The translations under genes and the position numbers were made by a program. A stretch of 64,000 nt of DNA, taken from positions 62,001-126,000 of the forward strand of contig NZ_JAAATY010000017.1 of the NCBI RefSeq assembly GCF_013280595.1, written 5' to 3'. The DNA is from Kibdelosporangium persicum. GTDB lineage: Bacteria; Actinomycetota; Actinomycetes; Mycobacteriales; Pseudonocardiaceae. Under the pieces are notes generated by a model. The model did no database searches and was not told the origin of the DNA. It was given only the letters and a program-made list of their open reading frames with translations. Positions 46,971 through 64,000 of the stretch are shown here, piece after piece; positions within the stretch are counted from its first letter, which is position 1; every line of letters starts with the position of its first letter.

Positions 46971-48239
46971 TCACTGCCGGTACTTGTCGGTGAGCTCTTC
47001 CAAGTGTGGGACGAGCTCGTTGGGCGTGGGCATCGCGAGCATCTCGTCCCGCAGGGCACGGGCGCGCTCGCCGAACGACGGCTCGTCGAGCAGTCTGAGC
47101 AGGCACTCCCGGACGCCCGCGCCGGTCGCCTCGGTCGCGTGGATCTCCAGACCGGCGCCGTACTCGGCGAGTTTCCTGGCCAGCGCGGGCTGGTCGGAAT
47201 CCCACGGCAGGGACAGCTGGGGCACGCCGTGCAGCGTCGTCGTGGCCATCGTGCCGATGCCCGCGTGGTGGATCACGGCTGTGCAGGTCGGGGCGAGCGC
47301 GTCGACCGGCGCGAAGTGCACCAGCCGCGCGTTGTCCGGCACCTCGCGAAGCTTCGCCTGCTCGGCGCGGTCGATCGTGGCGACGACCTCGATGTCCAAG
47401 TCCGCCAACGAAGTCAGGATGTCCTGGACGTCGACGATGTAGCCGTCCGGGCGTTCGGCGATGATGCTGCTGCCGAGCGTCAGCCCGACCCGTGGCCTGG
47501 CCGGAGGTGTCCACAGCCAGTTCTCCACAGTGGCCGTGCCGTTGTACGGGACGTACCGCAGCGGCACGTTGTGCACGTCGCCGATCACGCGCAGCGGGTC
47601 CGGCAGTTGGTCGATGGTGAAGTGGCCGGTGATCAGGTCCTCGGAGAACTCGACGCCGTACCGGTTGACGTTGCTGGTGATCCACTCGGCCAGCGCGTCG
47701 CCGCGGTCCTCGGGTGGCTGCCGCTCCTTGAGGTTGAGGTAGTGCGCGCGGGTGACGCTGAAGATGTCGACGCTCCACAGCAGACGCGCGTGCGCCGCGC
47801 CGACGACCTTGGCCGCGATCGAACCGGCGAACGCGGCGGTCTCCCAGATCACCAGATCCGGCTGCCACTGCCTGGCGAACACCACCAACTGGTGGATCAT
47901 CGGCACGTTGACGGCCTTGTACCACCACTCGACGTGGTTGTCGTAGCCGGACTTCATGTACTCCCACGTGATCCGCTCGGGGAAGTCGACCACGTCGTAC
48001 GGGCGCGGGAAGCCGGGCTCGTCCTCTTCCTCGTCCCCGCCGTCGTCGAAATCGGCGGTGCGGCCGTAGTTGCGGCTGCCGACCGGGACGGCGGTCAGCC
48101 CGGCCTGGGTGATCGTCTCGGCGAAGTCGGGCTGGCTGGCCACGGCGACCTCGTGCCCGGCCGTGCGCAGCGCCGAGGCCAGCGGGACCATGAAATGGAA
48201 GAGCGTTTTGGCCGGTTCGGTGACGAACAGGACTCGCAT
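46971..48239 (-). CDS. Glycosyltransferase 1 of 8 (EryCIII/DesVII-like, GT1 fold)
   Basis: 422 residues. N-terminal acceptor domain MRVLFVTEPAKTLFHFMVPLASALRTAGHEVAVASQP; NVPMIHQLVVFARQWQPDLVIWE; C-terminal NDP-sugar domain RPRVGLTLGSSI and the HHAGIGT donor motif (about residue 335). The overall sequence follows macrolide/polyketide deoxysugar transferases. An acidic low-complexity insert (DFDDGGDEEEDEPGF, about residue 66) lies after the first domain's strands. ATG 48239, AAGGAG upstream. Last glycosyltransferase of the leftward operon. Donor and acceptor sugars cannot be read from sequence; no P450-like auxiliary partner is visible. Confidence 0.92.
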   Translation of the reverse strand: MRVLFVTEPAKTLFHFMVPLASALRTAGHEVAVASQPDFAETITQAGLTAVPVGSRNYGRTADFDDGGDEEEDEPGFPRPYDVVDFPERITWEYMKSGYDNHVEWWYKAVNVPMIHQLVVFARQWQPDLVIWETAAFAGSIAAKVVGAAHARLLWSVDIFSVTRAHYLNLKERQPPEDRGDALAEWITSNVNRYGVEFSEDLITGHFTIDQLPDPLRVIGDVHNVPLRYVPYNGTATVENWLWTPPARPRVGLTLGSSIIAERPDGYIVDVQDILTSLADLDIEVVATIDRAEQAKLREVPDNARLVHFAPVDALAPTCTAVIHHAGIGTMATTTLHGVPQLSLPWDSDQPALARKLAEYGAGLEIHATEATGAGVRECLLRLLDEPSFGERARALRDEMLAMPTPNELVPHLEELTDKYRQ

Positions 48240-48253
48240 CGGTGTTCTCCTTG

Positions 48254-49501
48254 TCAGTACTCGGCCAGCCGCGCGGCCACCTGGCTGGGATCGGGCATGG
48301 CGAGCATCTCGTCGCGCAGCCGTCGCGCGCTGTCGCGGAAGGCCGGCTCGTGCAGCAGGCGCAGCACGCCCTGCCGGACGGTGTCGCCCTTGGCTTCGCT
48401 GGGATCCATCGCCAGCCCGGCGCCCTGCTCGGCGAGTTTCCGGGCCAGGGCGGGCTCGTCGAAGTGCAACGGCAGCGCCAGCTGCGGCACGCCCTGCAAC
48501 GACGTGGTAGCCAGCGTGCCGATTCCGGCGTGGTGCACCACCGCGCTGCATGACGGGACAAGCGCCTGCAATGGGACGTACGGAACCACGGTCGTGTTCG
48601 CCGCGACATGGCTGAGCTTGCGCTGTTCGCTCTCGGCGACCGTGGCCACGACGTCGATGTCCAGATCCGCCAGTGAATCGAGGATGTCCGGCACACTGAC
48701 GACGTAGCCGTCGAACGCCTCGGTGGCCGTGATGCCGAACGTGATCGCGATTCGCGGTCGTTCGGCGGCCGGCCAGAGCCAGCGGGGGACCGTCGCCGGG
48801 CCGCCGTAGGGGACGTACCGCATCGGTACGTAGTCCAGATCCGCCGCGACCCGCAACGAATCCGGTAGCTGGTCGATGGTGGCCTGGCCGGTGATCATGT
48901 CCTCGTCGAACGCCGCGCCGTACTTGCGGGCGTGCGCGTCCAGCCATTCGGCGAGCGCGTCACCGCGGTCGTCCGGTGGCTGGTGTTCTTTGAGGCTCAG
49001 GTAGTGCGAGCGGGTGACGCCGAAGACGTCCACGCTCCACAACAGACGCGCGTGCCTGGCACCGACCGCCTTGGCCGCGATCGGCCCCGCGTAGACCGAC
49101 GGTTCCCAGATGACCAGGTCCGGCCGCCAGTGCCGGGCGAAGGACACCAGGTCGGGGATCATCGGCTGGCTGTCGATCTTGTGCCACCACGTGACGTGGT
49201 AGTCGTACCCGGACTTCAGGTACTCCCAGCTGATCCGCCCGGGGTGGTCCACCACGTCGTACGGCCTGAACAGTCCGGTCCGCGCGGCCGTGCCGGGCTG
49301 GGGTTCCATGCCGGCCAGCCGTTTGTGGTTGTGGTCGCGGCCGACGGGCACAGCGGTCAGGCCGGATCGGGCGATCGTGTCGGCCATCCTGGGCTGGCTG
49401 GCCACGCGCACCTCGTGCCCGGCCGTGCGCAGCGCCCAGGCCAACGGCACCATCGACTGGAAGATGCTCCGGTCGGGGCAGGTGGTGAACAGAACGCGCA
49501 T
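48254..49501 (-). CDS. Glycosyltransferase 2 of 8 (EryCIII/DesVII-like)
   Basis: 415 residues with the complete family pattern: MRVLFTTCPDRSIFQSMVPLAWALRTAGHEVRVASQP, SYDYHVTWWHK-type region (SGYDYHVTWWHKIDSQPMI), HWRPDLVIWEPSVYAGPIAAKAVG, RPRIAITFGITATEAFDGYVV, VPDILDSLADLDIDVVAT and the donor motif HHAGIGTLATTSLQGVPQLALP. ATG 49501. It is 14 bases upstream of glycosyltransferase 1 and nine bases downstream of glycosyltransferase 3, so it is in the same operon. Intact in length and motifs; expected to be active. Confidence 0.93.
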   Translation of the reverse strand: MRVLFTTCPDRSIFQSMVPLAWALRTAGHEVRVASQPRMADTIARSGLTAVPVGRDHNHKRLAGMEPQPGTAARTGLFRPYDVVDHPGRISWEYLKSGYDYHVTWWHKIDSQPMIPDLVSFARHWRPDLVIWEPSVYAGPIAAKAVGARHARLLWSVDVFGVTRSHYLSLKEHQPPDDRGDALAEWLDAHARKYGAAFDEDMITGQATIDQLPDSLRVAADLDYVPMRYVPYGGPATVPRWLWPAAERPRIAITFGITATEAFDGYVVSVPDILDSLADLDIDVVATVAESEQRKLSHVAANTTVVPYVPLQALVPSCSAVVHHAGIGTLATTSLQGVPQLALPLHFDEPALARKLAEQGAGLAMDPSEAKGDTVRQGVLRLLHEPAFRDSARRLRDEMLAMPDPSQVAARLAEY

Positions 49502-49510
49502 GGTCGTCTT

Positions 49511-50809
49511 TCAGTCCGTGCCGCGGTGCTTGGCGGTGAGTTCTTCCAGGTGCGGGACGAGTTCGTTCGGGGTGGGCATCGCGAGCATCTCGTGACGCAG
49601 CCGCTGGGCGGACTCGCGGAAGGACGGTTCGTTCAGCACGCGCAGCAGCAACTCCCGGACCTGTGGACCGGCCGACTCGGACGAGTGAATGGTCAGTGCC
49701 GCGCCCTGCTCGGTGAGTTTGCGCGCCAGCGGCGGCTCGTCGAAGTCCGTCGGCAGCGCCAGCTGCGGCACGCCGTGCAGCGACGTTGTCGCCAGCGTGC
49801 CGAATCCGGCGTGGTGGATGACCGCCGCGCACGTCGGAGCCAACGCCTGCAACGGCGCGTAGCTGACCATCCTGACGTTCTCGGGCACCCGGCTGATTTT
49901 CTTCTGCTCGTCCGCGTTGATCGTCGCGACGATCTCGATGTCCAGGTCCGCCAGCGAGTCGAAGATGCCCTGGACGCCGACGGCGTAGCCGCCGAACCGT
50001 TCCGCCGCCGTGATGCCGAGGGTGATCGCGACCCGTGGCCGCTTCGGCTTCTCCCACAGCCATGGCTCCACAGTGGACGGACCGCCGTACGGCACGTACC
50101 GCATCGGGACGTAGTCCAGGCCGGCGGGCAACCGCAACGACTCCGGCAGCTGGTCGATGGTGAACTGACCGGTGACCATGTCCTCGGTGAAGCGGCCGCC
50201 GTTGCGCTTGGCAGCCGCGCCAAGCCAGTCCGCGAGCATGTCGCCGCGCGCCCGGCGGGGCTGCTGCTCCTTCAGGCGCAGGTAGTGCTCACGGGTCACG
50301 CCGAAGACGTCCTGACCCCACAACAGGCGAGCGTGTGTCGCGCCGACGGCTTTCGCGGCGATCGGGCCCGCGAACGCGATCGGGTCCCAGATGACCAGGT
50401 CCGGCCGCCACCACTTGGCGTACGCCACCATCCGGTTGATCATCGGGACGCTGTCGGTCTTGTGCCACCAGGTCACGTAGAAGTCGAAGCGGGCCTTGAG
50501 GTCCGTCCAGCTGATGTCCGGCTCCGGCTTGGCGGCGACGTCATAGGGCAACGGCAACACGTCGTCGTCGTCATCGTCGTCCTCCTCCTCGTCGGCCTCG
50601 GCGGCCGCGAGTAACGCGTCCGCGTCAGCGTCCTCGGGATCGTCCCGGCCGACCGGGACAGCCGTGAGCCCGGCCTGGTTGATCGTCTTGGCGAACTTGC
50701 CGAGGCTGGCGACGCGGACCTCGTGGCCCGCCGTGCGCAAGGCCCACGCCAGCGGCGTGAGTGACTGGAAGATGCTCTTGTCCGCGGACGTGGCGAACAG
50801 GACACGCAT
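49511..50809 (-). CDS. Glycosyltransferase 3 of 8 (EryCIII/DesVII-like, acidic insert)
   Basis: 432 residues, slightly longer than its neighbours because of an acidic insert (ADALLAAAEADEEEDDDD, about residues 64-81). The rest is canonical: ATSADKSIFQSLTPLAWALRTAGHEVRVAS, WWRPDLVIWDPIAFAGPIAAKAVGATHARLLWG, RPRVAITLGITAAERFGGYAVGVQGIFDSLADLDIEIVAT and donor motif HHAGFGTLATTSLHGVPQLALP. ATG 50809 with AAGGAGG upstream. Member of the leftward glycosyltransferase operon; expected to be active. Sugar specificity unknown. Confidence 0.93.
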   Translation of the reverse strand: MRVLFATSADKSIFQSLTPLAWALRTAGHEVRVASLGKFAKTINQAGLTAVPVGRDDPEDADADALLAAAEADEEEDDDDDDDVLPLPYDVAAKPEPDISWTDLKARFDFYVTWWHKTDSVPMINRMVAYAKWWRPDLVIWDPIAFAGPIAAKAVGATHARLLWGQDVFGVTREHYLRLKEQQPRRARGDMLADWLGAAAKRNGGRFTEDMVTGQFTIDQLPESLRLPAGLDYVPMRYVPYGGPSTVEPWLWEKPKRPRVAITLGITAAERFGGYAVGVQGIFDSLADLDIEIVATINADEQKKISRVPENVRMVSYAPLQALAPTCAAVIHHAGFGTLATTSLHGVPQLALPTDFDEPPLARKLTEQGAALTIHSSESAGPQVRELLLRVLNEPSFRESAQRLRHEMLAMPTPNELVPHLEELTAKHRGTD

Positions 50810-50836
50810 GGGTTTCCTCCTTCGGTGGGCGGCGGT

Positions 50837-51799
50837 TCACGCCCGGTACTTGTCGGCCAGTTCGACCAGGTGGGGGACGATCTCGTTGGCTGGTGGCATG
50901 GCGAGCACCTCGTCGCGCAACCGGCCCGCCGCTTCCTGGAACGACGGTTCGTCCAGCAACCGGAGCAGGGCCGCGCGAACCTCGTCGCCGCTGCGCTGCT
51001 CGGCGCTGATGTGCAGACCGGCGCCGGATTCGGCGATCTTCTCCGCCAATGCGGACTGGTGCGGCCGTGACGGCAGCGCGAGGTGCGGCACGCCGTACAG
51101 ACTCGTGGTGGCGACGGTGTCGGCGCTGCCGTCGTGGATGACCGCCGCGCAGCCGGACACGATCGTGTCGAGCGGTGCCGCCGTGCCCAGCCGGACGTTG
51201 TCGGGGAACACGATGTGCTGACCGGCGTCGGTGTCCGTCGCGACGATCTCGATGTCCAGGTCCGCGAGGGATTCCGTCAGACCGGCGAGGACACCGCTGC
51301 CGGGAACGAGACCGACCCGGGGCCGCCGCGGCGGTGACCACAGCCACGTGTGGATCGTCACCGGCCCGCGGTACGGCGTGTGCCGCACGTCCACCGAGTG
51401 GACATAGTCCTTGGTGCGCAACGAAGTCGGCAACTGCTCGATCACGAAGTGCCCGTCGGCGTCGTCGTGCGTCCCCTGCCAGAGCACCTGTGCGTGCGCG
51501 GCATCGGTCGCCTTGGCCGCTGCCGGGCCCGCCGCGGCCGACGGTTCGCCGACCACCAGGTCCGGCCGCCAGTACTCGGCGAACCGGACCGTCTCAGCCG
51601 TGTCGGGACTGTCCATCTTGGTCTGTGGATCACGGTCGCCGAGCGGCAGGGCGGTCAGGCCGGCGGACGAGATGGTGCGGGTGAACGCCGGATGGGCGGC
51701 GATCCGCACCTCGTGGCCCGCTGTGCGCAGGGCACCGGCCAGTGGGGCCATCGCGTAGAAGGCCTTCTTCTTCGGCGGGGTAACGAATAACACGCGCAC
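50837..51799 (-). CDS. Glycosyltransferase 4 of 8, internally deleted
   Basis: Only 320 residues against about 420 in the paralogues. The N-terminus (VLFVTPPKKKAFYAMAPLAGALRTAGHEVRIAA) and C-terminus (RPRVGLVPGSG, SLADLDIEIVATDTDAG, DEPSFQEAAGRLRDEVLAMPPANEIVPHL) are family-like. Two in-frame gaps of roughly 45-60 residues remove the ITWEYLKSGYDYHVTWWHK region and the DALAEWI...DMITG region. The donor-binding HHAG motif is HDGS, so normal catalysis is doubtful. The frame and its ribosome site are intact, which argues for a retained role (regulatory or scaffolding partner) or a recent decay. In the same operon as the intact copies. Confidence 0.85.
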   Translation of the reverse strand: MRVLFVTPPKKKAFYAMAPLAGALRTAGHEVRIAAHPAFTRTISSAGLTALPLGDRDPQTKMDSPDTAETVRFAEYWRPDLVVGEPSAAAGPAAAKATDAAHAQVLWQGTHDDADGHFVIEQLPTSLRTKDYVHSVDVRHTPYRGPVTIHTWLWSPPRRPRVGLVPGSGVLAGLTESLADLDIEIVATDTDAGQHIVFPDNVRLGTAAPLDTIVSGCAAVIHDGSADTVATTSLYGVPHLALPSRPHQSALAEKIAESGAGLHISAEQRSGDEVRAALLRLLDEPSFQEAAGRLRDEVLAMPPANEIVPHLVELADKYRA

Positions 51800-51811
51800 G
51801 TGGCTTGCTCC

Positions 51812-53062
51812 TTAGCTTTGGTGTGCGGCGGTGAGCTCCTCGAGTCGCGGGACGATCTCGTTGGGGGAAGGCATGGCGAGCATCTCGTCGCGGATCTTCT
51901 GGGCGTTGGCGCGGAAGTGTGGCTCGTTCAGCAGCGCGAGCACGGCTTCCCGGACGGCTGGGCCGGTGGCTCGCGCCGAGTCGATGGCGAGGCCGGCACC
52001 GTGTTCGGCGAACCGGGTGGCGAGGGCGGGTTGGTCGAAGTGGTACGGAATGGACAGTTGCGGTATGCCGTGCAGGCTTGTGGTGGCCATCGTGGCCGCA
52101 CCGGCGTGGTGGATGACCGCGGTGCAGGTCGCGGCCAGGTCCTGTAGTGGCACGTACGGCACGATCTTGGTGTTCTTGGGAATCCGGGGCAGTGCGGCTC
52201 GGGTCTTGTCGGTCAGGGTCGCGACGAGCTCGATGCGCAGGTGGCCGAGCGCGTCCAGTATTTGTCCTATGTCGACGGTGTAACCGGCGAACTTCTCCGT
52301 GGCGGTCAGGCCGAGGGTCAGTGCGACGCGCGGCTTGCGTGGCGGTGTTCGCAGCCAGGACGGGACAGTCGCCGGTCCGCCGTAAGGAGTGTGACGCATC
52401 GGAACGTACTGCAGATCGGCCGCGATGCGAAGCGAAACGGGCAACTGGTCGATGGTGAACTGACCGGTGACCATGTCCTCGCTGAAGTCCGCGCCGTACT
52501 CGCGGGCGTGGCGGGTGAGCCACTCGGCCAACGGATCCGGTCCCGGTGCGTCGAGTTGCCGGTACAGCTGCCGCGTGACGCCGAAAACGTCCATGCTCCA
52601 CAGCATCCGGGCGTGCGCGGCGCCGATGGCCTTCGCGGCGATCGATCCGGCGAACGTCCGCGGCTCCCAGACGATCAGGTCCGGCCGCCAGTGCCGGGCG
52701 TACGCGACCAGCTGGGAGATCAACGGCAGGTTGTCCATCTTGTGCCACCACGTGACGTGGTGGTCGTACCCCGCCCGCAGGTGCTCCGGTGTGGCCAGCG
52801 AGGGGTCGATCGCCGCGTCATAGGGCCGGGGGAGCCCGGCGCGGGCGGAAACCTGTTCGCCTGGCGCGTTTTCCAGCGCACGGTGGATGTCGCTGTCCCG
52901 GCCGACCGGGACGGCGGTGAGCCCGGCCTGGGTGATCACGCCGGCGAAGCGGGGCTGGCTGGCGACGCGGACGTCGTGCCCGGCGGTGCGCAGCGCCCAG
53001 GCCAGCGGCACCAGGTACTGGAAGGTGCTCTTGTCCGGGCAGGTCGCGAACAGCACGCGCAC
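51812..53062 (-). CDS. Glycosyltransferase 5 of 8 (EryCIII/DesVII-like)
   Basis: 416 residues. RVLFATCPDKSTFQYLVPLAWALRTAGHDVRVASQPRFAGVITQAGLTAVPVG at the N-terminus, HWRPDLIVWEPRTFAGSIAAKAIGAAHARMLWSMD in the middle, RPRVALTLGLTATEKFAGYTV and donor motif HHAGAATMATTSLHGIPQLSIP. GTG start at 53062. A 124-base segment at its 5' end (52901-53024) is identical to the corresponding part of glycosyltransferase 6. Twelve bases separate the two genes. All catalytic motifs are present. Confidence 0.93.
   Translation of the reverse strand: MRVLFATCPDKSTFQYLVPLAWALRTAGHDVRVASQPRFAGVITQAGLTAVPVGRDSDIHRALENAPGEQVSARAGLPRPYDAAIDPSLATPEHLRAGYDHHVTWWHKMDNLPLISQLVAYARHWRPDLIVWEPRTFAGSIAAKAIGAAHARMLWSMDVFGVTRQLYRQLDAPGPDPLAEWLTRHAREYGADFSEDMVTGQFTIDQLPVSLRIAADLQYVPMRHTPYGGPATVPSWLRTPPRKPRVALTLGLTATEKFAGYTVDIGQILDALGHLRIELVATLTDKTRAALPRIPKNTKIVPYVPLQDLAATCTAVIHHAGAATMATTSLHGIPQLSIPYHFDQPALATRFAEHGAGLAIDSARATGPAVREAVLALLNEPHFRANAQKIRDEMLAMPSPNEIVPRLEELTAAHQS
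52901..53024 (-). repeat. 124-bp direct repeat, copy 1 (glycosyltransferase 5)
   Basis: Exactly identical to 54197-54320 in glycosyltransferase 6, encoding the first-domain strands (CASQPRFAGVITQAGLTA region). Identity stops abruptly on both sides. It indicates recent duplication or gene conversion. Confidence 0.9.
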
Positions 53063-53074
53063 GTCGTGTCTCCT

Positions 53075-54358
53075 TCAGTGTTGTGCGATGCGGCGGTGTG
53101 CGATGCGGTGGTGTGCCACGAGGCTTTCCAGCCGCGGGACGATCTCGTTCGGCGTGGGCATGGCGAGCACTTCGTCACGCAGCCGCCGCGCCCCTGCCCG
53201 GAACCGCGGCTCGCCGAGCAGCCGGAGCAGGTCCCGCCGGACGTCCGCGCCGGTGGCCATGGTCGAGTGGATGTCCAGCCCGGCGCCCTGCTCGGTGAGC
53301 TTGCGCGCCAGCGCGGGCTGGTCGAAGTGGTACGGAATGGACAGCTGGGGCACGGCGTGCAGGCTGGTGGTGGCCAATGTGGCCGCGCCGGCGTGGTGGA
53401 TCACGGCACTGCACGTCGCGGCGAGGTCGTGCAGCGGCACGTACGGGATGACCCGGGTGTTCGGCGGAATCCTGCTGAGGTTCTGCTTCGCCTTGTCGGT
53501 CAGCGTGGCCACCAGTTCGATGTCCAGGTCGGCCAGGGCGTCGAACACATCCTGGACGTCCACGGTGTAGCCGCCGAACCGCTCGGTGGCGGTCAGCCCG
53601 AGGGTGAACGCCACCCTCGGCCTGGCCGGTGCTGTCCGCAGCCAGGCCGGAACGGTGGCAGGCCCGCCGTACGGGACGTACCGCATCGGGAGGTAGTCCA
53701 GATCCGCGGTGATCCGCAACGACTCCGGCAACTGGTCGATGGTGAAGTGGCCGGTGATCATGTCCTCGCTGAAGCTGGTGCCGTACTTGGTGGCGTAGCC
53801 GGACAGCCACTCGGCGAGCGGATCTTCCCGGTCCTCTTGCCCGTCTTTCAGGCGCAGGTAGTGGTCGCGGGTGACGCCGTAGATGTCCAGGCAGTACATC
53901 AGACGGCCGTGGGTCGCGCCGATGGCCTTCGCGGCGATCGATCCGGCGTAGCTGGTGGGTTCCCAGAGGATCAGGTCCGGCCGCCAGTGCCGGGCGTACG
54001 TGACCAGCTGGGCGATCATCGGGAAGTTCTTCATCCGGTGCCACCAGGTGACCTGCGTCCGGTAGCCGTCACGCAGGTAGTCCCAGCTGGCTTTCTCCGG
54101 TGCGTCGGCCACGTCGTACGGCGGGGGCAGGCCCGCACGCGACGCCTCGACCTGCTCCGGTTTGCCCTCGGCGACACGCCAGATCTCCCGGTCACCGCCG
54201 ACCGGGACGGCGGTGAGCCCGGCCTGGGTGATCACGCCGGCGAAGCGGGGCTGGCTGGCGACGCGGACGTCGTGCCCGGCGGTGCGCAGCGCCCAGGCCA
54301 GCGGCACCAGGTACTGGAAGATCGTCTTTTCCGGGTAGGTGACGAACAGCACGCGCAC
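53075..54358 (-). CDS. Glycosyltransferase 6 of 8 (EryCIII/DesVII-like)
   Basis: 427 residues. RVLFVTYPEKTIFQYLVPLAWALRTAGHDVRVASQPRFAGVITQAGLTAVPVG, HWRPDLILWEPTSYAGSIAAKAIGATHGRLMYCLDIYGVTRDHYL, RPRVAFTLGLTATERFGGYTV and donor motif HHAGAATLATTSLHAVPQLSIP. GTG start at 54358, next to the 124-base identity with glycosyltransferase 5. It also shares a 63-base exact stretch (53759-53821) with glycosyltransferase 7. The C-terminus has a short repeat HHRIAHRRIAQH from a 15-base duplication. Intact; expected active. Confidence 0.93.
   Translation of the reverse strand: MRVLFVTYPEKTIFQYLVPLAWALRTAGHDVRVASQPRFAGVITQAGLTAVPVGGDREIWRVAEGKPEQVEASRAGLPPPYDVADAPEKASWDYLRDGYRTQVTWWHRMKNFPMIAQLVTYARHWRPDLILWEPTSYAGSIAAKAIGATHGRLMYCLDIYGVTRDHYLRLKDGQEDREDPLAEWLSGYATKYGTSFSEDMITGHFTIDQLPESLRITADLDYLPMRYVPYGGPATVPAWLRTAPARPRVAFTLGLTATERFGGYTVDVQDVFDALADLDIELVATLTDKAKQNLSRIPPNTRVIPYVPLHDLAATCSAVIHHAGAATLATTSLHAVPQLSIPYHFDQPALARKLTEQGAGLDIHSTMATGADVRRDLLRLLGEPRFRAGARRLRDEVLAMPTPNEIVPRLESLVAHHRIAHRRIAQH
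54197..54320 (-). repeat. 124-bp direct repeat, copy 2 (glycosyltransferase 6)
   Basis: Exact copy of 52901-53024. A second shared exact stretch of 63 bases links glycosyltransferases 6 and 7 (53759-53821 and 54907-54969). Confidence 0.9.
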
Positions 54359-54369
54359 GTCGTGTCTCC

Positions 54370-56555: not shown

Positions 56556-56819
56556 TCATCCCATGTTCTGACTGCGTGCGGCGCTTTCCACGATGATGTC
56601 GGCCAGTTCGCTGAATTCGGCGCCGTCGAACTCCTCCAGCGACTCGAGCAGCCGGACGTGGTAGATGTTCTCCAGCTCGAGAATGATCTGGACCATCGAG
56701 AACGAGTCGAGGTCGGCGACGGAATTCGGCTCCGGCACATCGGGCTGCTCGGCGCAGATCATCCGGGCGGTGGCCGCGACGGTCTCGGTCACGGCGCCTT
56801 TGTCGAGCGTTTCGTTCAT
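56556..56819 (-). CDS. Acyl carrier protein
   Basis: 87 residues. Phosphopantetheine site DLDSFSMVQIILELEN, with Ser39 in DSF. The N-terminal helix (VTETVAATARMICAEQ) and the C-terminal ELADIIVESAARSQ helix complete an ACP fold. ATG 56819 (MNETLDKG) is chosen; a longer in-frame reading would contain the inverted repeat upstream. No polyketide or fatty acid synthase genes are near, so the ACP probably carries an activated acid made by the adenylating enzyme at 61754, such as a cinnamoyl group (inference). Confidence 0.9.
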   Translation of the reverse strand: MNETLDKGAVTETVAATARMICAEQPDVPEPNSVADLDSFSMVQIILELENIYHVRLLESLEEFDGAEFSELADIIVESAARSQNMG

Positions 56820-56843
56820 CGGGCATGCGCCTTTCCTGTCAGG

Positions 56844-56969: not shown

Positions 56970-57956
56970 TTAGCGGTCACCGGCCGGCGAATCGCCGGTC
57001 ATGCGCCAGCGGTCCCAGTTCATCCGGCCGGTCGTCGCCGGTAAGGCGTCCAGTTCGCGCAGATCCTCGCGGCTGAGCCGGAGGTTGAGCGCGGCGAAGT
57101 CCTCCTGCAGCCAGCGCAGCCGCCGCGTACCCGGCAGCGCGACCACCCGCTCGTCCTGCGCGAGCGTCCAGGCGATCGCCACCTGGGCGGGCGTCGCGCC
57201 GAGCCGGTCGGCGACCGACCGCACGCCCTTCACGATGATCTCGTTGGCCGCCATGGCGTCCGCGGTGAACCGCGGGTCACGCGACCGGGAGTCCTCCGCG
57301 CCGAGACCGCCGGCCACGTTGCCCGACAGGTAACCGCGGCCCAGCGGCGAGAAGGCCACGTAGTCCACGTCGTTCTCCCGGCACCACGGCAGGACGTCGG
57401 CCCGGTTGTCCGCCGCCCAGATGGACAGTTCGTACTGCACGGCGGCCATCGGGAAGATCGCGTGCACCGCGCTCAGTTCGTCCACTGTGGCGTGGGAGAT
57501 GCCCAGCGCCCGCACTTTGCCCTCGGTGACCAGTTCGGCCATGGCGCCCCACGTCTCCTCGAGCGGGACGGCGGGGTCCACCCGGTGCAGCTGGTAGAGG
57601 TCGATGACGTCGGTCTGTAGCCTGCGCAGCGAGCCCTCGCACGCGGTGCGGATGTGCTCGGGCCGCCCGTTGCGGCTCAGCATGCCGTCCGGGCCCGCGA
57701 CCAGCCCGCATTTGGTGGCGATGACAGCCGAGTCGCGGCGTCCCTTCAGCGCCTGGCCGAGCAGTCGTTCGTTGCTGAACGGGCCGTAGACGTCCGCGGT
57801 GTCGAAAAGCGTGATGCCCAGCTCGATGGCGCGGTGAATGACGCGGACCGACTCGGCGTCGTCGCGATTCTCCGGCGCGTATCCACCGGACATGGTCATA
57901 CAGCCGAGGCCGACCCGGCCCATTTTGAGCCGTTCGGCGATCAGAGTTTTCCGCAT
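56970..57956 (-). CDS. Aldo/keto reductase (NDP-hexose ketoreductase/enoyl reductase type)
   Basis: 328 residues. VGLGCMTMSGGYAPENRDDAESVRVIHRAIELGITLFDTADVYGPFSNERLLGQAL, with the catalytic Asp and Tyr in DTADVYG (about residues 48-54), Lys in ATKCGLV and His in YQLHR. NADPH site VKGVRSVADRLGATPAQVAIAW. AKRs of this group act on keto-deoxysugar nucleotides (TylCII/EryBII-like) or generic aldehydes. In this cluster a sugar role is expected. ATG 57956. Operon-mate of the ACP and ketoreductase genes. Confidence 0.88.
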   Translation of the reverse strand: MRKTLIAERLKMGRVGLGCMTMSGGYAPENRDDAESVRVIHRAIELGITLFDTADVYGPFSNERLLGQALKGRRDSAVIATKCGLVAGPDGMLSRNGRPEHIRTACEGSLRRLQTDVIDLYQLHRVDPAVPLEETWGAMAELVTEGKVRALGISHATVDELSAVHAIFPMAAVQYELSIWAADNRADVLPWCRENDVDYVAFSPLGRGYLSGNVAGGLGAEDSRSRDPRFTADAMAANEIIVKGVRSVADRLGATPAQVAIAWTLAQDERVVALPGTRRLRWLQEDFAALNLRLSREDLRELDALPATTGRMNWDRWRMTGDSPAGDR

Positions 57957-58168: not shown

Positions 58169-58192
58169 CATGTCCCGCTTCCCGGCGGGCGC

Positions 58193-59206
58193 TCAGCCGT
58201 CCCGCTGGCGGGACGGCTCGCTCTGCGGCCGCGCGGCGTAGATCCGCGCGATTTCGTGGAAGGCCGCCTTGGGTGCCCACCGCTGGCCGCTTCGCTGGGT
58301 CACCTTCGTGATCGCGTATCCGGCCATGTCGAGGTCCCGCGCCGCCCGGCCGGAATGCAGCCGGGTGCGGTCGACGAACTCGAACACGAACGCGCCGTCG
58401 ACGTCTTCATCGCGGTAGATCCCGAGCAGTTCGGCCAGATACCTGGCCTGTGTGCCCTCGTCTCTGGTGAATCCGGGGCGCACCCGCGGCGGGTCGGTGC
58501 GCCAATCGACGATCCCGTGTGTCGCCGGTCCGTCGTCGTCCGCGCCCACATAGCTCCCGCAGCCGAATTCCAGAATGACGACGGGCTTGCCGTGCCGGTG
58601 CTGACGGCGCAGTTCCGCGCGGTATCCGACGCGGTTGTGCCGGTGCCGGTAGTAGTTCACGCCGACGATGTCGAACGCGGTCCAGTCGACTTTCTCCCAG
58701 AAACCCGACGCGTACGTGATCCGGCCGTGGAAACCCGCGCGGGCGGTCGCCGCTGCCTGTCCGAGAAACACGTTCAGCCGCCTGTTGAACAGCGGGAGCA
58801 GTGCCCACCAGCGGGGTGACTCCAGCGGGAATCCCTTGTCCGCCGCGGTGCGGCCGGGAATGATCCCGTCGGTGTAGAGCGAGTACTCGCAGCCCACGTT
58901 GAGCACGATCGCCGGGTGTTCCCGCCGCAGCTGCTCGGCGGCGTGCGCGGCTTCGCCCAGGTGGGCGAGCACTTCGGCGGGTGCCGCGTCGGGCAGCCGG
59001 GGTTGCAGCCAGACTTCGAGGCCGAGTTCGAGCGCGACACGGGCGGCTTCGGCCAGCTGCCGCACATCGCGGCCGTAGATGTTCACCGCGTTGCAATACA
59101 ACTCGTCGCGAATGGCGATAAGGTCTTGCCGTACGATGTCCGCGCCGTCCGTGTACCAGTAGTCGGACTCGATTCGATAATTGATGCCCCGGTGGACAAG
59201 GCTCAT
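58193..59206 (-). CDS. TIM-barrel glycoside-hydrolase-like protein
   Basis: 337 residues. (beta/alpha)8 pattern with HRGINYRI, AVNIYGRDVRQL, GLEVWLQPRLP, VLNVGCEYSLYTDG (likely acid/base Glu about residue 108), TYASGFWEKVDWTAFDIVGVNYYRH and VVILEFGCGSYVG (likely nucleophile Glu about residue 215), as in glycoside hydrolase clan A. Relatives are often labelled 'abortive infection protein', a label not supported by these motifs. No signal peptide, so cytosolic. It could trim or recycle the oligosaccharide, hydrolyse an intracellular glycoside or act in glycosyl transfer. ATG 59206 overlaps the stop of the upstream 54-codon ORF. Confidence 0.8.
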   Translation of the reverse strand: MSLVHRGINYRIESDYWYTDGADIVRQDLIAIRDELYCNAVNIYGRDVRQLAEAARVALELGLEVWLQPRLPDAAPAEVLAHLGEAAHAAEQLRREHPAIVLNVGCEYSLYTDGIIPGRTAADKGFPLESPRWWALLPLFNRRLNVFLGQAAATARAGFHGRITYASGFWEKVDWTAFDIVGVNYYRHRHNRVGYRAELRRQHRHGKPVVILEFGCGSYVGADDDGPATHGIVDWRTDPPRVRPGFTRDEGTQARYLAELLGIYRDEDVDGAFVFEFVDRTRLHSGRAARDLDMAGYAITKVTQRSGQRWAPKAAFHEIARIYAARPQSEPSRQRDG

Positions 59207-59367
59207 TGTGTATCCTCGTTCGACAGGTGCTGAATAATACGTTCGAACACGTCCGTCATAGGTATGCCGATAGCTTTCGCCTCGTTCACCATGGGCTCGA
59301 GGTAGGTCGCGAAGAACGTCTCCCTTCGTTCCGCGCGCCCGCCCTCCTGCCGCAGGTCAAAGGACAT
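59203..59367 (-). CDS. 54-residue helical protein (GntR-tail-like)
   Basis: The frame runs from ATG 59367 to TGA 59203-59205 and is coupled to the TIM-barrel gene (ATGA). Sequence begins MSFDLRQEGGRAERRETF and ends FERIIQHLSNEDTQ. The central MVNEAKAIGIPMTDVFERI resembles the short dimerisation tail (EARRLGLSxDEL) of YtrA-type GntR regulators, but there is no winged helix. GAGG lies nine bases upstream of the start. A TIM-barrel chaperone, subunit or regulator role is possible; no function is claimed. Confidence 0.6.
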   Translation of the reverse strand: MSFDLRQEGGRAERRETFFATYLEPMVNEAKAIGIPMTDVFERIIQHLSNEDTQ

Positions 59368-59550
59368 GCCGATGCCTCATTTCACGTGGTTGTCATTGCT
59401 CGATCCGCGTAATAGATTGCGGAGAGCGGTGAACATCATCCTACGTCGTGGCGTGCCGGGCTGACTACCCTCGGTGAACTGTCCACGGCGGCAAATCCCT
59501 TGTTGTGCTCCGGCCGTCGTGCCAGGCCGTCCGATGCGGAGAGGAATTCG

Positions 59551-60888
59551 ATGCGGGTTCTGTTCGCCACATATGCGGTGAAAACGCATTTCCAGGCGAT
59601 GGTGCCGCTGGCGTGGGCGTTGCGTAACGCGGGCCACGAGGTCAGGGTGGCCAGCCAGCCTGAGCTGGCCGACGTCATCACCAGCGCCGGCCTGACGGCG
59701 GTGTCCGTCGGCCAGGACCACACGCTGTGGCGTACCGCCAACCGGTTTCTGACCAAGCGGTACGCGGAGTCCAACCCGGCGGTGTACAAGTCCGTCCGTG
59801 AGGCCAAGGTGCTGCCGTTCGACCAGGCCGAGCGCGCGCCGGAACAGCTGACGGTGGACGACCTGGCGCCGGCCTACGACAACCTGGTGCGGTCCTGGTA
59901 CCGGATCGTCAACAACACCATGGTCGCCGACCTGGTCGACTTCGCCCGGCACTGGCGGCCGGACCTGGTCATCTGGGAGCCCAACAGCTACGCGGCGGCG
60001 ATCGCGGCCGAGGTGTCCGGCGCCGCGCACGCCAGGATGCTGTGGGGCGCCGACATTTTCGCCGTCACCCGGGCCCGGTTGCTCGACCTGCGAGCGGGAC
60101 GACCCGACGCGCTGGGGGAGTGGCTCGCCGGGCTGATCGAGCCGTACGGCCACGACTTCACCGAAACCCTGGTCACTGGGGACTTCACGATCGACCAGCT
60201 GCCCGGCCCGCTGCGGATGACAGCCGATCACGTGCACTACGTGCGGATGGGATACGTGCCGTACAACGGCGTGGCCACCGTGCCAAAGTGGTTGTGGGAG
60301 CAGCCGAAACGGCCACGAGTCGCGCTGACCCTGGGTGTGTCCGCCGCGGAGAGCTTCGGCGGATACGGCGTCAGCGTCCAGGACGTGCTGGACTCGTTGG
60401 CGGACCTGGACATCGAGATCGTGGCCACAGTGGCCGAACGGGAACAAGACAAGCTCCGGCAGATCCCGGAGAACACCAGGGTCGTTCCGTCCGTGCCGCT
60501 GCATGCGCTGCTGCCCGGCTGCTCGGCGGCCATCCACCACGCGGGGTTCAACACGTTGTGCACCACCCTGTTCTACGGCGTGCCGCCGATGTCACTGCCG
60601 GAACGGTTCGACGAACCGCTGCTCGCACGACGAGTCGAGCAACAGGGCGCGGGGCTCTCGGTGCACATGGCGGAGGCGACCGGCGAGCAGGTGCGTGCCG
60701 GAGTGCTCCGGCTGTTGACCGAACCGTCGTTCCGGCAGGCGGTGCAGCCGCTGACCGCCGAGATGACCGCCATGCCGTCACCGGCGGATCTGGTGGCATA
60801 CCTGGAAGAACTCACCGACGGCTATCGCCGTCACCCCAGCCCAGCTGTCCGGCAAGTCGCCGCACTTCACGGAAACGGATCATCATGA
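59551..60888 (+). CDS. Glycosyltransferase 8 of 8 (EryCIII/DesVII-like)
   Basis: 445 residues and on the opposite strand from the other seven. RVLFATYAVKTHFQAMVPLAWALRNAGHEVRVASQPELADVITSAGLTAV, RSWYRIVNNTMVADLVDFARHWRPDLVIWEPNSYAAAIAAEVSGAAHARMLWGAD, RPRVALTLGVSAAESFGGYGVSVQDVLDSLADLDIEIVAT and donor motif HHAGFNTLCTTLFYGVPPMSLP. ATG 59551 with GAGAGGA upstream. Its stop overlaps rfbA by four bases. Since it is translationally tied to dTDP-sugar supply, it may add an early sugar to the aglycone (inference). Confidence 0.93.
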   Translation: MRVLFATYAVKTHFQAMVPLAWALRNAGHEVRVASQPELADVITSAGLTAVSVGQDHTLWRTANRFLTKRYAESNPAVYKSVREAKVLPFDQAERAPEQLTVDDLAPAYDNLVRSWYRIVNNTMVADLVDFARHWRPDLVIWEPNSYAAAIAAEVSGAAHARMLWGADIFAVTRARLLDLRAGRPDALGEWLAGLIEPYGHDFTETLVTGDFTIDQLPGPLRMTADHVHYVRMGYVPYNGVATVPKWLWEQPKRPRVALTLGVSAAESFGGYGVSVQDVLDSLADLDIEIVATVAEREQDKLRQIPENTRVVPSVPLHALLPGCSAAIHHAGFNTLCTTLFYGVPPMSLPERFDEPLLARRVEQQGAGLSVHMAEATGEQVRAGVLRLLTEPSFRQAVQPLTAEMTAMPSPADLVAYLEELTDGYRRHPSPAVRQVAALHGNGSS

Positions 60889-61757
60889 AGGGAATCATCC
60901 TCGCAGGCGGAAGCGGGACCCGGCTCTACCCGCTGACCGCCGCGACCTCGAAGCAACTGCTGCCCGTCTACGACAAGCCGATGGTCTACTACCCGTTGTC
61001 GGTGCTGATGCTCGCCGACATCCGGGACGTGCTGATCATCTCGACGCCCACGAGCGTGCCCGCGATGCGGTCGTTGCTCGGCGACGGCACGCACCTCGGG
61101 ATGAACATCACCTACGCCGTCCAGCCCGAGCCCAACGGCATCGCCGAGGCGTTCCTGATCGGCGCGGACCACATCGGCGGTGAGGACTCCGCGCTCATCC
61201 TGGGAGACAACATCTTCCACGGGACCGGGTTCCCCGGCCTGTTGCGGGACACCCGCAAGAACCTCGACGGCGCCACGCTGTTCGGCTACCCGGTCTCCGA
61301 TCCGGAGCGCTACGGCATCGGCGAGCTCGACGAGCGCGGGAACCTCGTCTCCCTTGAGGAGAAACCGAAGCAGCCGCGCTCGGACAACGCGATCACCGGG
61401 CTGTACTTCTACGACTCCGACGTCGTCGAGATCGCCAAGGGCCTCACGCCGTCCGCCCGCGGCGAGCTGGAGATCACCGACGTCAACAAGGAGTACCTGC
61501 GTGCGGGCCGGGCCCGCCTGGTCCGCCTCGGCCGCGGCTTCACCTGGCTGGACGCCGGGACGCACGAGTCGCTGCTGGAAGCGAGCCAGTACGTGCACGT
61601 GCTGGAGAACAGGCAAGGCGTGCGGGTGGCGTGCCTGGAGGAGATCGCGTTGCGGATGGGCTTCATCAACGCCGACGAGTGCTACTCGCTCGGCGAAAGG
61701 ATGACCAATTCGCAGTACGGGCGCTACGTCATGACTGTGGCGCGGTCGGCGGCATGA
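60885..61757 (+). CDS. rfbA: Glucose-1-phosphate thymidylyltransferase (RmlA/RfbA)
   Basis: 290 residues. MKGIILAGGSGTRLYPLTAATSKQLLPVYDKPMVYYPLSVLMLA (nucleotide-binding G-x-G-T-R loop), GDNIFHG (Asp metal site), EEKPKQPRSDNAITGLYFYD and ITDVNKEYLRAGRARLVRLGRGFTWLDAGTHESL. It makes dTDP-glucose, first step of all dTDP-deoxyhexoses used by such transferases. ATG overlaps the preceding glycosyltransferase stop; its own stop overlaps the adenylating-enzyme start. RmlB and other deoxysugar genes are not in the window and presumably lie beyond its right edge. Confidence 0.97.
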   Translation: MKGIILAGGSGTRLYPLTAATSKQLLPVYDKPMVYYPLSVLMLADIRDVLIISTPTSVPAMRSLLGDGTHLGMNITYAVQPEPNGIAEAFLIGADHIGGEDSALILGDNIFHGTGFPGLLRDTRKNLDGATLFGYPVSDPERYGIGELDERGNLVSLEEKPKQPRSDNAITGLYFYDSDVVEIAKGLTPSARGELEITDVNKEYLRAGRARLVRLGRGFTWLDAGTHESLLEASQYVHVLENRQGVRVACLEEIALRMGFINADECYSLGERMTNSQYGRYVMTVARSAA

Positions 61758-62824
61758 GCCGTCCCGCCAGCGAGACATCTGCGGGGACCAGAGGATTCCC
61801 CGCGATACCACCGGATGAGCTGCTGTCAGCCGGGTTCGACGCGATCACCGACCGGCCGTGGCGTACACAGTGGACATCCGGCGCCGCGGACCTGGTGCGC
61901 GACTTGCTGCCGGAGACGGTGGTGACGCGCACGTCCGGGTCCACCGGTCCCAGCCAGGAATGGCCACGCACACGCGAGCAGTTGTGGGCGGAAGCAGGCC
62001 TGCTGGCGGATCTGCTGCGTCCCCATCGGCCGGACGCGGTGGTGTCCTTCGCGCCGCCGAGGCACTTGTTCGGTGCGCTGGCCAGCGTGCTCGTGCCGGC
62101 CCGGCTGGGTGCCGAGGCCTGGTACCGGCCGGGGTTCTTCGGTTCCCTGCCCCCGGTGGCCGGCCGGCGCGTGGTCGTCGTTGCGGTGCCGTGGATCTTC
62201 CGGCTCCTGCTGGAACATCCGGACTGGGTGCGTTCGCTGGCCGACCTGACGGTGTTGCACAGCACCGCGCTGCTGCCCGCCACCGCCGGGGACTTCCTGG
62301 CGAGCGCGGAGCAGGCGCGCATCGTCGAGGTCTTCGGGGCCACGGAGACGGGGGGCGTGGCGTATCGGTGGTGGCGTGGTGGAAACCCGCCGTGGCAGCT
62401 GTTCGACGACGTCACAGTCGATTTCCCCGGGCCGGGTGAGCACCCGCTGGTGGTGCGCGGCCCTCGGCTGGCCGGGAATGCACGGAGCCGGCAGCTGGAC
62501 GACTTCGTCGAGCCGGTCGGCGACCGGCGGTTCCGGTTCACCGGCAGGCGGAGCCGGTTGGTGAAGGTCAACGGGCGACGGTTGAACCTCGACGAGCTGG
62601 AAGTGGCACTGCGCGCGGTGGTCCGGTGTGCCGACCTGGCGCTCGTGCCCAGCGCGGACGCCATGACCGGCGAACACCTGGAGTTGCTGATAGTCCCGCC
62701 CGACGGCGGCCGGCACGACCTCAGCCCGGTTGTCGACGTGCTGGGGTTGCGGCCGAGGCGTGTGCACGTGGTCGATCGGATCGACCGGACCGAGACGGGC
62801 AAACTCCGGCGAGCCGTGTCATGA
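61754..62824 (+). CDS. Short adenylate-forming enzyme (AMP ligase)
   Basis: 356 residues, well below the usual 500 or more. P-loop TSGSTGPSQEW (residues 60-70), FGATETGGVAYRWW (A5), a FTGRRSRLVKVNGRRLNLDELEVAL segment (A8) and ETGKLRRAVS (A10 Lys). The N-terminal lid strands (A1-A2) before the P-loop are absent. Such short forms occur in natural product clusters, where they load carboxylic acids onto carrier proteins. Coupled to rfbA and to the ammonia-lyase (both overlap by four bases), it most likely activates the cinnamate made by the lyase, perhaps onto the ACP at 56556 (inference). Confidence 0.85.
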   Translation: MSRPASETSAGTRGFPAIPPDELLSAGFDAITDRPWRTQWTSGAADLVRDLLPETVVTRTSGSTGPSQEWPRTREQLWAEAGLLADLLRPHRPDAVVSFAPPRHLFGALASVLVPARLGAEAWYRPGFFGSLPPVAGRRVVVVAVPWIFRLLLEHPDWVRSLADLTVLHSTALLPATAGDFLASAEQARIVEVFGATETGGVAYRWWRGGNPPWQLFDDVTVDFPGPGEHPLVVRGPRLAGNARSRQLDDFVEPVGDRRFRFTGRRSRLVKVNGRRLNLDELEVALRAVVRCADLALVPSADAMTGEHLELLIVPPDGGRHDLSPVVDVLGLRPRRVHVVDRIDRTETGKLRRAVS

Positions 62825-64000
62825 GCGGACTGGCTTCGCTGGTGCGGCAGGCAGGCTGGGACGCCGTGCTGCCCGACTGCGGTCCGGACGACATCGACCG
62901 GATGGCCGAGAGCACCGCGACCGTGGACAAGGCACTGGCCGCCGGAGTGCGGATCTACGGCCTCACCCAGGGCTTCGGGCCGCTTGTGGAGTTCACCGCG
63001 GCGTCCGAGGCCGAGCAGGGCACGAGCCTGATCGCCCACCTGGGCAGTGGCCAGGGCCGCCCACTGGACCCGGACGTCTGCCGGTTGATCGTGTGGCTGC
63101 GGCTGGTGAGCATGCGCAAGGGGTATTCGGCGGTGTCGCCGGAGTTCTGGCACGTGCTCGCGGACCTGTGGAATCGCGGGTTCACCCCGGCGATTCCCCG
63201 CGACGGCACGGTCAGCGCGAGCGGCGACCTGCAACCGCTGGCACATGCGGCTCTCGCGTACGCCGGTCACGGCGACGCGTGGGTGCGGGTCGAGAACGAA
63301 TGGACACTGCGCCCCGCCGCCGAAACGCTCGCGGCACTGTCGGCCGAACCCGTCGAATGGCCGGTCCGGGAGGCGTTGGCGTTCGTCAACGGGACCGGTG
63401 CCAGCCTCGCCGTCGCGATCGTGAACCAGCAGTCGGCGACACGGCTCGTACGCGCGGTCACCCTGCTGACGGCCCGTATTGTCTTCCTGTTGCGCGCCAA
63501 CAGGGAGCACTACCACCCGGGTGTCGCGGTCGCTCGTGGCCAACCTGGACAGTCCACTGTGGCGCGCTGGTTGCGTGAGTCGCTGCCGCCGGACACGGCC
63601 AGGGACCCGGCACGGCCGCTGCAGGAGCCGTACAGCCTGCGGTGCGCGCCGCAAGTGCTCGGCGCGGTACTCGACCAGCTCGACTCGGCGGGCAACGTCC
63701 TGCTGAACGAGGCGTTCGGCTGTACGGACAACCCGCTTACCTACGAAACGGAGGTGCTGCACGGCGGCAACTTCCACGCGATGCCGGTCGGCCTCGCCTC
63801 CGACCAGATCGGGCTGGCCCTGCACCAAGCCGCCTACCTGGCGGAACGACAGCTGGCCCTGATCTGCGACCCCGGCACCAACGGCGGACTGCCGCCCATG
63901 CTCACCCCGCGCCCGGGACGTGGCTGCGGCCTGGCGGGGGTGCAGATCAGCGCGACCTCGTTCGTGTCCAGAATCAGGCAGTTGGTGTACCCGGCGTCGC
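62821..64000 (+). CDS. Tyrosine ammonia-lyase (Sam8-like), 3' end beyond window
   Basis: 393 residues visible, cut by the window edge before the C-terminus. MIO prosthetic group Ala-Ser-Gly in VSASGDLQPLAHAALA (residues 133-135), catalytic Tyr in IYGLTQGFGPL (Tyr46), His in LIAHLGSGQG (His73, the position that selects tyrosine in bacterial lyases), and FVNGTGAS and GGNFHAMPVGLASDQI. By memory it is clearly homologous to Sam8 of Saccharothrix espanaensis (saccharomicin pathway), with many conservative differences, so it is an orthologue from another strain. It forms p-coumarate from tyrosine. An aminomutase is the alternative. ATG overlaps the upstream stop. Confidence 0.9.
   Translation, partial: MSGLASLVRQAGWDAVLPDCGPDDIDRMAESTATVDKALAAGVRIYGLTQGFGPLVEFTAASEAEQGTSLIAHLGSGQGRPLDPDVCRLIVWLRLVSMRKGYSAVSPEFWHVLADLWNRGFTPAIPRDGTVSASGDLQPLAHAALAYAGHGDAWVRVENEWTLRPAAETLAALSAEPVEWPVREALAFVNGTGASLAVAIVNQQSATRLVRAVTLLTARIVFLLRANREHYHPGVAVARGQPGQSTVARWLRESLPPDTARDPARPLQEPYSLRCAPQVLGAVLDQLDSAGNVLLNEAFGCTDNPLTYETEVLHGGNFHAMPVGLASDQIGLALHQAAYLAERQLALICDPGTNGGLPPMLTPRPGRGCGLAGVQISATSFVSRIRQLVYPAS

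Follow-up and report, generated by a model that had tools for sequence, protein, structure and literature searches.

A Kibdelosporangium persicum gene cluster akin to that of saccharomicin and predicted to encode a coumarate-primed oligosaccharide

Does the array of glycosyltransferase genes in Kibdelosporangium persicum belong to a further saccharomicin cluster or to a relative with another product? The array lies in the window analysed here, a stretch of 64,000 nucleotides (positions 62,001-126,000 of contig C17, NZ_JAAATY010000017.1, 201,717 bp) in a genome of 10.35 Mb and 89 contigs (G000). Saccharomicins are heptadecaglycosides on a caffeoyl-taurine aglycone, itself made from tyrosine via Sam8, and saccharomicin is to our knowledge the only family member with a known product. 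The locus combines a Sam8-type lyase, a Sam7-type ligase, a tandem transferase array (seven genes plus one) and sugar genes of the 4-epi-vancosamine type. We consider it quite probable that this is an intact cluster whose product is a coumarate-primed oligosaccharide within the saccharomicin superfamily but not saccharomicin itself. Gene-by-gene comparison with the sam locus of Saccharothrix espanaensis (G062) reveals kinship plus clear differences, in line with the original prediction of a related but distinct cluster.

The sequence was read to the right end of the contig (139.7 kb in all). Genes, including their starts, come from our own codon-based caller, proteins g038 to g106 were read, and positions past 64,000 continue the numbering of the window (position in locus L002 plus 62,000). 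The cluster spans about 41,837 to 71,594, i.e. 7.6 kb past the right edge of the window, where it had been expected to continue. Its start had been placed at 46971. The real left edge is at about 41,837: the g043/g044 pair (44904-46927) and a block of LmbU, helix-turn-helix (HTH) and M78 genes (43005-44919) are shared with related clusters, two of which, besides the same-genus ones, also have g039 (41837-43012). The right border, at about 71,594, is the end of synteny with two genomes grouped with the genus, G216 and G218 (the latter named Actinosynnema sp. ALI-1.44). This synteny covers g039 to g067 at 70-97% identity. Across these genes the ratio of nonsynonymous to synonymous substitutions (dN/dS; pairwise Nei-Gojobori values for three species, uncorrected for codon bias) ranges from 0.06 to 0.39.

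RmlA (rfbA), epimerase-type and aldo/keto reductases, a carrier-like protein, a short adenylating enzyme and an aromatic ammonia-lyase, all announced from the window, are confirmed. The right flank also holds the RmlB and deoxysugar genes anticipated there (RmlB, a 2,3-dehydratase, an aminotransferase, an RmlC-type protein and a sugar C-methyltransferase). The coumarate 3-hydroxylase predicted for the same side is not in the cluster and was not found in the genome. Sam proteins were counted from an HpaB-like gene that we read as Sam5. This order places an aspartate decarboxylase at Sam29 (Asp_decarbox, 162 bits) and a penicillin amidase at Sam36 (Penicil_amidase, 690 bits), as described in the available sections of the genome paper (PMC3469384). 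Sam5, Sam9, Sam10, Sam27, Sam29, Sam33, Sam35 and Sam36 have no match at 1e-6 among the genes called in the 139.7-kb stretch, which sat in the same database as the other clusters and returned 0 matches at this threshold for any of ten sam queries. The Sam5 3-hydroxylase has no match at 1e-10 in the whole K. persicum genome; the same search matches 8 of 11 genomes, with some matches in same-genus G216, and many of the matched proteins are general relatives encoded outside the cluster. The taurine and coupling branch (Sam27, Sam29, Sam36) and the sulfation genes (Sam10, Sam35) were not found in the stretch, the rest of the genome not being searched for them. Sam33 is, by our own assignment, probably a digitoxose ketoreductase. 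It has no counterpart in the stretch (the only part of the genome searched for it), so no digitoxose is expected.

A lyase search of 390 genomes of the same family yielded matches of at least 68% identity at 18 places, spread over 17 genomes with our own counted, the next match being at 51%. The setting of these relatives had been proposed as a check: all 17 other places sit with RmlA, the ligase type and transferases, in a survey without a search aimed at enediyne genes. Cluster labels stand for BLAST matches at 30% identity or more and show relatedness, not function. Every one of the 17 other clusters has RmlA, ligase, lyase and the g052 type. All but G088 (A. anabasis), which lies at a contig end, also have the carrier, LmbU, aminotransferase, dehydratase, RmlC type and C-methyltransferase (16/17). 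Less constant are the g054 type (12/17), the g043 type (10/17), the AcvX-like protein (8/17) and Sam33 (8/17). Only two clusters (G062 and G077) carry labels for Sam5 and the sulfotransferase and match Sam27, Sam29 and Sam35; the amidase (Sam36) is found in three (these and G088). Labelled transferases number 3 to 17 per cluster, sam having 10. Same-strand runs reach 16 in G146 and G151 (L064-L067, L081, L082), 15 in G157 (A. suaedae; L054, L055, L080) and 14 in G214b (L052, L053, L083), with 17, 17, 16 and 15 labelled in all. A counterpart of Sam33 and a gene of the AcvX type are present in all four, for which the cluster BLAST table shows no match to taurine or sulfation genes.

A pattern scan of a species-genome collection, which finds close relatives only, gave 40 named loci. 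L130 (archaeal, 34% match) was left out, and 8 of the 39 counted were already among the family clusters. The ligase type lies at most two genes upstream in 35/39 and RmlA within five genes in 30/39; a transferase is present in the fetched stretch in 32/39 and missing from it in 7. Ten of 394 genomes in a class-wide draw match the lyase at 1e-150, and four of eight genomes searched in the genus carry it at 80% or more (own included in both). Three genomes with lyases at 50-51% (G072, G045, G186) were fetched and excluded from later counts; the surroundings of a fourth (G071, 51%) were not fetched. Across many genera, transferases accompany the RmlA-ligase-lyase genes. The K. persicum cluster is a distinct branch of this wider family sharing the core; its single genes are ordinary and their combination is new.

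The eight EryCIII/DesVII-type paralogues originally reported are all there: the minus strand carries seven (46971-55506) and the plus strand the eighth (59551-60888). Only six of them are intact. These six exceed the cut-off (440 bits) of TIGR04516, the model for activator-dependent glycosyltransferases, with 478-510 bits, while g048 and g051 fail. A tree (FastTree, midpoint root) was built from 169 transferases, i.e. 161 of the 163 labelled in the 17 other clusters and our own eight; two pieces of 118 and 78 amino acids (aa) were left out. The seven array members form, with those of the G216, G218, G058 and G214a arrays and three others, a group of 44 (support 0.93) that contains no Sam protein. 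The smallest group containing Sam11-20 has 83 members, none from the K. persicum cluster. The arrays have thus multiplied independently, and sugar specificities are not transferable from sam. g057 belongs to a group of eight (support 1.0) with one member per cluster, each ahead of RmlA, which makes it a candidate first (aglycone) transferase. The HHAG-like donor motif has His at its third position in 162 of the 169 sequences; the seven exceptions are g048 and g051, the four proteins that correspond to them in G216 and G218, and a masked row. In the alignment g048 and g051 are also without internal segments. Both are degenerate yet under purifying selection (dN/dS 0.16/0.18 for g048 and 0.21/0.39 for g051). 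In G058 and G214a the counterparts of g051 (support 0.96) retain their full length and have an altered motif, so that the loss of motif and segments looks stepwise.

No P450-type activator (TIGR04515) exceeds its cut-off in the cluster. In the K. persicum genome such activators occur only on contigs C10 and C46, each near another transferase, and none was found in the 10 other genomes searched, a set separate from G088, G138, G260, G111, G151 and G332. Many P450-like proteins lie under the cut-off among the matches listed. The C10 and C46 loci carry same-family transferases beside the activator and probably serve other glycosylated products. In S. espanaensis, the TIGR04516 matches over the cut-off number exactly ten and all belong to sam; in G216 they number exactly six, all in its cluster. 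Since saccharomicin is made, the transferases of these clusters either need no activator or use something unseen by TIGR04515.

The methylidene-imidazolone (MIO) triad ASG and the His-Leu pair are conserved in 18/18 lyases (two of them read by eye), and the DSF serine in 17/17 carriers. The substrate of g059 is assigned from its neighbouring gene because the protein scores far under the coumarate-ligase model. The carrier protein belongs to the family core. We lean to p-coumaroyl as the predicted cargo of g053, as the ligase is the only acyl-activating gene recognised in the cluster. An attribution of the carrier to the aminosugar branch, which has the same distribution, lost force once the regions were extended and both were present in nearly all clusters. 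No mention of a coumaroyl-acyl carrier protein was found in the literature searched, which is thin in subscription papers. The lyase-ligase-carrier core also occurs with large nonribosomal peptide synthetase (NRPS) genes in G138 (L086), G332 (L069, L087) and G260 (P. cavernicola; L078, L061), the last also with a PALP-family gene; Pfam domains were seen for G138 and the G260 start, and motifs only elsewhere. Their products are perhaps glycosylated N-coumaroyl peptides. In G138 and G260 the carrier gene is co-directional with the NRPS genes, and the first NRPS protein has a condensation domain at its start (82.6 and 52.1 bits, respectively); its adenylation motifs begin only after this domain, at residues 570 and 544.

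Among the sugar genes, the sole solved structure matched by g064 at 1e-20 is EvaA (E=1e-125), g061 matches TcaB9 at 7e-186 versus 1e-88 for a mycarose methyltransferase, and g063 matches several sugar transaminases. EvaA to EvaE, in this order, form the route to 4-epi-vancosamine. Together with g052 and g054, the predicted functions fit L-4-epi-vancosamine or a close relative. The eight solved matches of g068 at 1e-15 are Rv3094c, HsaA-type hydroxylases, XiaF and two acyl-CoA-dehydrogenase-type proteins. A role as sugar nitrososynthase (N-oxygenase) or coumarate hydroxylase was rejected: there is no nitro-sugar name among the eight, and G216 and G218 have no such gene at this place, which sets it outside the cluster.

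A route can be proposed, in which the chemical steps and their order, the chain length and any activity are predicted from gene content, homology, active-site motifs, synteny and selection. g060 would deaminate tyrosine to p-coumarate, and g059 would adenylate it and load it onto g053 (which we favour) or coenzyme A. g057 would add the first sugar to the phenol. The intact g045, g046, g047, g049 and g050, some perhaps iterative, would then extend the chain. Sugar nucleotides would be supplied by RmlA and RmlB, the EvaA-type 2,3-dehydratase, the aminotransferase, the TcaB9-type C-methyltransferase, the RmlC-type epimerase and g052/g054. Neither hydroxylation to caffeate nor taurine nor sulfate is expected, and probably no digitoxose. 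g043/g044 may shield the membrane or export the product, and LmbU-type regulators may control the cluster. The predicted product, a candidate only, is a non-sulfated p-coumaroyl oligoglycoside.

Other readings were weighed against this one. That the locus is the saccharomicin A/B cluster of another strain, making the same caffeoyl-taurine heptadecaglycoside, is the least probable of all: core genes and the tandem array are in common, but the eight Sam proteins named above are unmatched over the 139.7 kb, Sam5 was not found genome-wide, and six intact transferases stand against ten, with no orthologue of Sam11-20. The transferases might instead decorate a scaffold made elsewhere (polyketide or glycopeptide), the lyase branch being unrelated. 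Their nearest solved structures, 7yp3, 2yjn, 4ldp (a forosamyltransferase) and 3wad, several of which we take to act on macrolides, would agree with this. It is scarcely credible, however, given that RmlA-ligase-lyase and transferases co-travel over many genera and that all six family members of G216 over the cut-off lie in its cluster. If the locus were in decay and had stopped making a product, the donor-site motif and internal segments lost in two transferases would be accounted for. Both degenerate forms are nevertheless kept in three species at dN/dS 0.16-0.39, the remaining g039-g067 genes showing 0.06-0.37, and we hold decay to be very unlikely. The product might also be a short p-coumaroyl glycoside amide, with amine and coupling enzyme encoded elsewhere, rather than a long oligosaccharide; cinodine and coumamidine are p-coumaroyl glycoside amides, and the papers found on cinodine-type antibiotics deal, judging by their titles, with chemical synthesis. 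Relatives with just 3-4 labelled transferases, and some with NRPS genes beside the same core, speak for this possibility. The six intact transferases speak against it, and no amide-forming or polyamine gene was recognised in the cluster, the genome not being searched for one, so that we regard it as improbable. A bolder extension of the preferred reading appears doubtful, though less so than any of these alternatives: p-coumarate on a dedicated carrier would prime a large unrecognised oligosaccharide-antibiotic family with activator-free transferases (runs of up to 16), saccharomicin being one branch and g048/g051 non-catalytic partners that replace the activator.

Several points weigh against an intact coumarate-primed pathway. 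Two of the eight transferases are degenerate. The best family of g059, TIGR02372, scores 79 bits for a cut-off of 334.7, and the RmlC-type g065 is slightly under its own (144.9 versus 155.75). The carrier gene does not adjoin the ligase gene in the clusters read, and another acyl cargo is conceivable. Neither a release gene nor an amine-partner gene was recognised in the cluster. A hydroxylation by g068, which lies next to the cluster, is conceivable, although the corresponding place in G216 and G218 shows no such gene. The HHxxxDG motif was not found in the first NRPS domain discussed above, with none in the 4,183 residues read of G138, and the first NRPS protein of G332 opens with an adenylation motif at 157; the NRPS comparison is therefore of little help to the coumaroyl-carrier model.

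Table 1. Genes of the K. persicum cluster and its right neighbour (positions in window numbering)
Gene	Product or type	Position	Strand	Evidence
g039	DUF6545 protein, left edge of cluster	41837..43012	-	PF20182 137.6 bits; 51-55% relatives at G149 and G128 clusters
g040	ImmA/IrrE-like (M78), possible regulatory partner of g041	43005..43508	-	weak PF06114, under gathering cut-off
g041	HTH regulator	43625..44086	-	weak HTH matches under cut-off; 82-97% relatives at four related clusters
g042	LmbU-family regulator	44239..44919	+	NF038070 222 bits, cut-off 125
g043	bPH_2 membrane protein, Sam23 counterpart	44904..46427	-	PF03703 103.5 bits; 41% to sam gene
g044	bPH_2 membrane protein, Sam24 counterpart	46424..46927	-	PF03703 66.8 bits; sam counterpart by label
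g045	Intact glycosyltransferase	46971..48239	-	TIGR04516 494.8 bits
g046	Intact glycosyltransferase	48254..49501	-	TIGR04516 490.1 bits
g047	Intact glycosyltransferase	49511..50809	-	TIGR04516 509.9 bits
g048	Degenerate glycosyltransferase, 320 aa, donor-motif His lost	50837..51799	-	TIGR04516 253.8 bits, under 440 cut-off
g049	Intact glycosyltransferase	51812..53062	-	TIGR04516 478.3 bits
g050	Intact glycosyltransferase	53075..54358	-	TIGR04516 491.9 bits
g051	Degenerate glycosyltransferase, 378 aa, donor-motif His lost	54370..55506	-	TIGR04516 346.7 bits, under 440 cut-off
g052	NAD-dependent epimerase-type reductase, Sam21 counterpart, likely 4-ketoreductase	55503..56522	-	PF01370 144.6 bits; 64% to sam gene
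g053	Carrier protein, Sam25 counterpart, LDSFSMVQ site	56556..56819	-	DSF serine; no Pfam family found
g054	Aldo/keto reductase, Sam22 counterpart	56970..57956	-	62% to sam gene
g055	GH113-like TIM-barrel protein, AcvX family	58193..59206	-	profile match to PDB 7y4h AcvX, E=1.5e-85
g056	54-aa protein	59203..59367	-	counterparts in G216, G218; two 41-50% matches in G088
g057	Glycosyltransferase at head of RmlA-ligase-lyase operon	59551..60888	+	TIGR04516 490.1 bits
g058	RmlA (glucose-1-phosphate thymidylyltransferase)	60885..61757	+	TIGR01207 429 bits, cut-off 361; 75% to sam RmlA
g059	Short adenylating enzyme, 4-coumarate-ligase-like, Sam7 counterpart	61754..62824	+	55% to Sam7
g060	Tyrosine ammonia-lyase, Sam8 counterpart	62821..64287 (crosses window edge at 64000)	+	70% to Sam8
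g061	Sugar C-methyltransferase	64402-65631	+	
g062	LmbU	65695-66240	-	
g063	Aminotransferase	66784-67893	+	
g064	2,3-dehydratase	67932-69278	+	
g065	RmlC type	69480-70097	+	144.9 bits, cut-off 155.75
g066	RmlB	70115-71131	+	
g067	68-aa protein	71388-71594	+	
g068	Flavin monooxygenase, just outside cluster	71745-72938		

E107 and E213 of g055 (Table 1) are invariant in 9/9 sequences and could form a retaining glycosidase pair. The protein matches GH113 only under the cut-off and no Pfam family at gathering score. In the same literature no paper on AcvX was found among the titles listed, and none for the structure 7Y4H. The idea that the AcvX-like protein replaces the amidase or an NRPS was dropped, G111, G149 and G128 (A. 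rifamycinica) being without all three by label. The g043/g044 pair is a candidate for self-immunity or export. The g040 type is labelled at the G149, G128, G058, G214a, G216 and G218 clusters.

Relatives of the lyase also occur in further settings. K. banguiense (G214) carries two different family clusters in one genome (C1:10.36-10.40 Mb and 11.18-11.22 Mb). A 58% lyase relative is found in the myxobacterium Hyalangium versicolor (L124), with neither ligase nor transferases in the fetched stretch. In ten loci, mostly from Nocardiopsis (L111, L113-L119, L127, L128), the genes for RmlA, RmlB, ligase and lyase are consecutive, and the sequence fetched contains few transferases.

Only two saccharomicins were known according to the accessible part of a 2021 review (PMC8234114), one of two papers found that mention both tyrosine ammonia-lyase and vancosamine. 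In 2012 the authors of the genome paper, in the text that could be consulted, were aware of no second cluster that equalled sam in its number of glycosyltransferase genes, ten (PMC3469384). The relatives described here show same-strand runs of 12 to 16. No literature on Kibdelosporangium oligosaccharide antibiotics was found, subscription papers lying mostly outside the search. The comparison yields a core for recognising further members, and features specific to saccharomicin (catechol, taurine, sulfate) can now be separated from those common to the family. Three questions become testable: whether the acyl starter sits on the carrier, how the transferases work without an activator, and how the producer protects itself.

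The sam cluster of S. espanaensis DSM 44229, as far as its published descriptions were accessible (PMC3469384, PMC8234114), shares with the K. persicum cluster the RmlA-ligase-lyase core, tandem EryCIII-type transferases, the g052 and g054 types, the bPH_2 pair, the carrier and epi-vancosamine-type genes. Identities are 75% for RmlA, 70% for the lyase, 64% for g052, 62% for g054, 55% for the ligase, 41% for g043 and at best 54-61% for the transferases, and counterparts of Sam21-25 are all present. In contrast to sam, the K. persicum stretch is without 3-hydroxylase, taurine, sulfation, amidase and Sam33 genes, whereas its cluster has its own RmlB, an AcvX-like protein and the HTH/M78 block. 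None of its eight transferases, six of them intact against ten in sam, corresponds one-to-one to Sam11-20. A PF00291 gene encoding a pyridoxal phosphate-dependent synthase-like protein lies two genes from Sam29 in S. espanaensis (L076:2901-5285); with the aspartate-decarboxylase-like Sam29, it could provide taurine via cysteate in that strain. The cluster of Saccharothrix tamanrassetensis CECT 8640 (L098, G077) is a close relative of sam (Sam5 95%, sulfotransferase 84%, 12 transferases versus 10) and the likeliest second saccharomicin-type producer among the clusters read.

Outside the family, EvaA (epi-vancosamine) and TcaB9 (tetronitrose) are the closest solved structures to the 2,3-dehydratase and the 3-C-methyltransferase, found here in a coumarate-glycoside cluster. 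g043/g044 resemble the YdbS/YdbT membrane pairs with PH domains, a kinship by bPH_2 family only; for YdbST-like pairs, a table in the portions available of two papers lists protection against amylocyclicin (PMC8144471, PMC10311245). Closest of all are the clusters of G216 and G218, with g039-g067 in synteny, the same two degenerate transferase counterparts and different right flanks. The clusters of Kibdelosporangium banguiense DSM 46670 (G214a) and G058 follow the same plan with carrier, AcvX-like protein and operon-leading transferase, but each has 11 transferases (without counting a distant 78-aa piece in G058) and no labelled bPH_2 pair.

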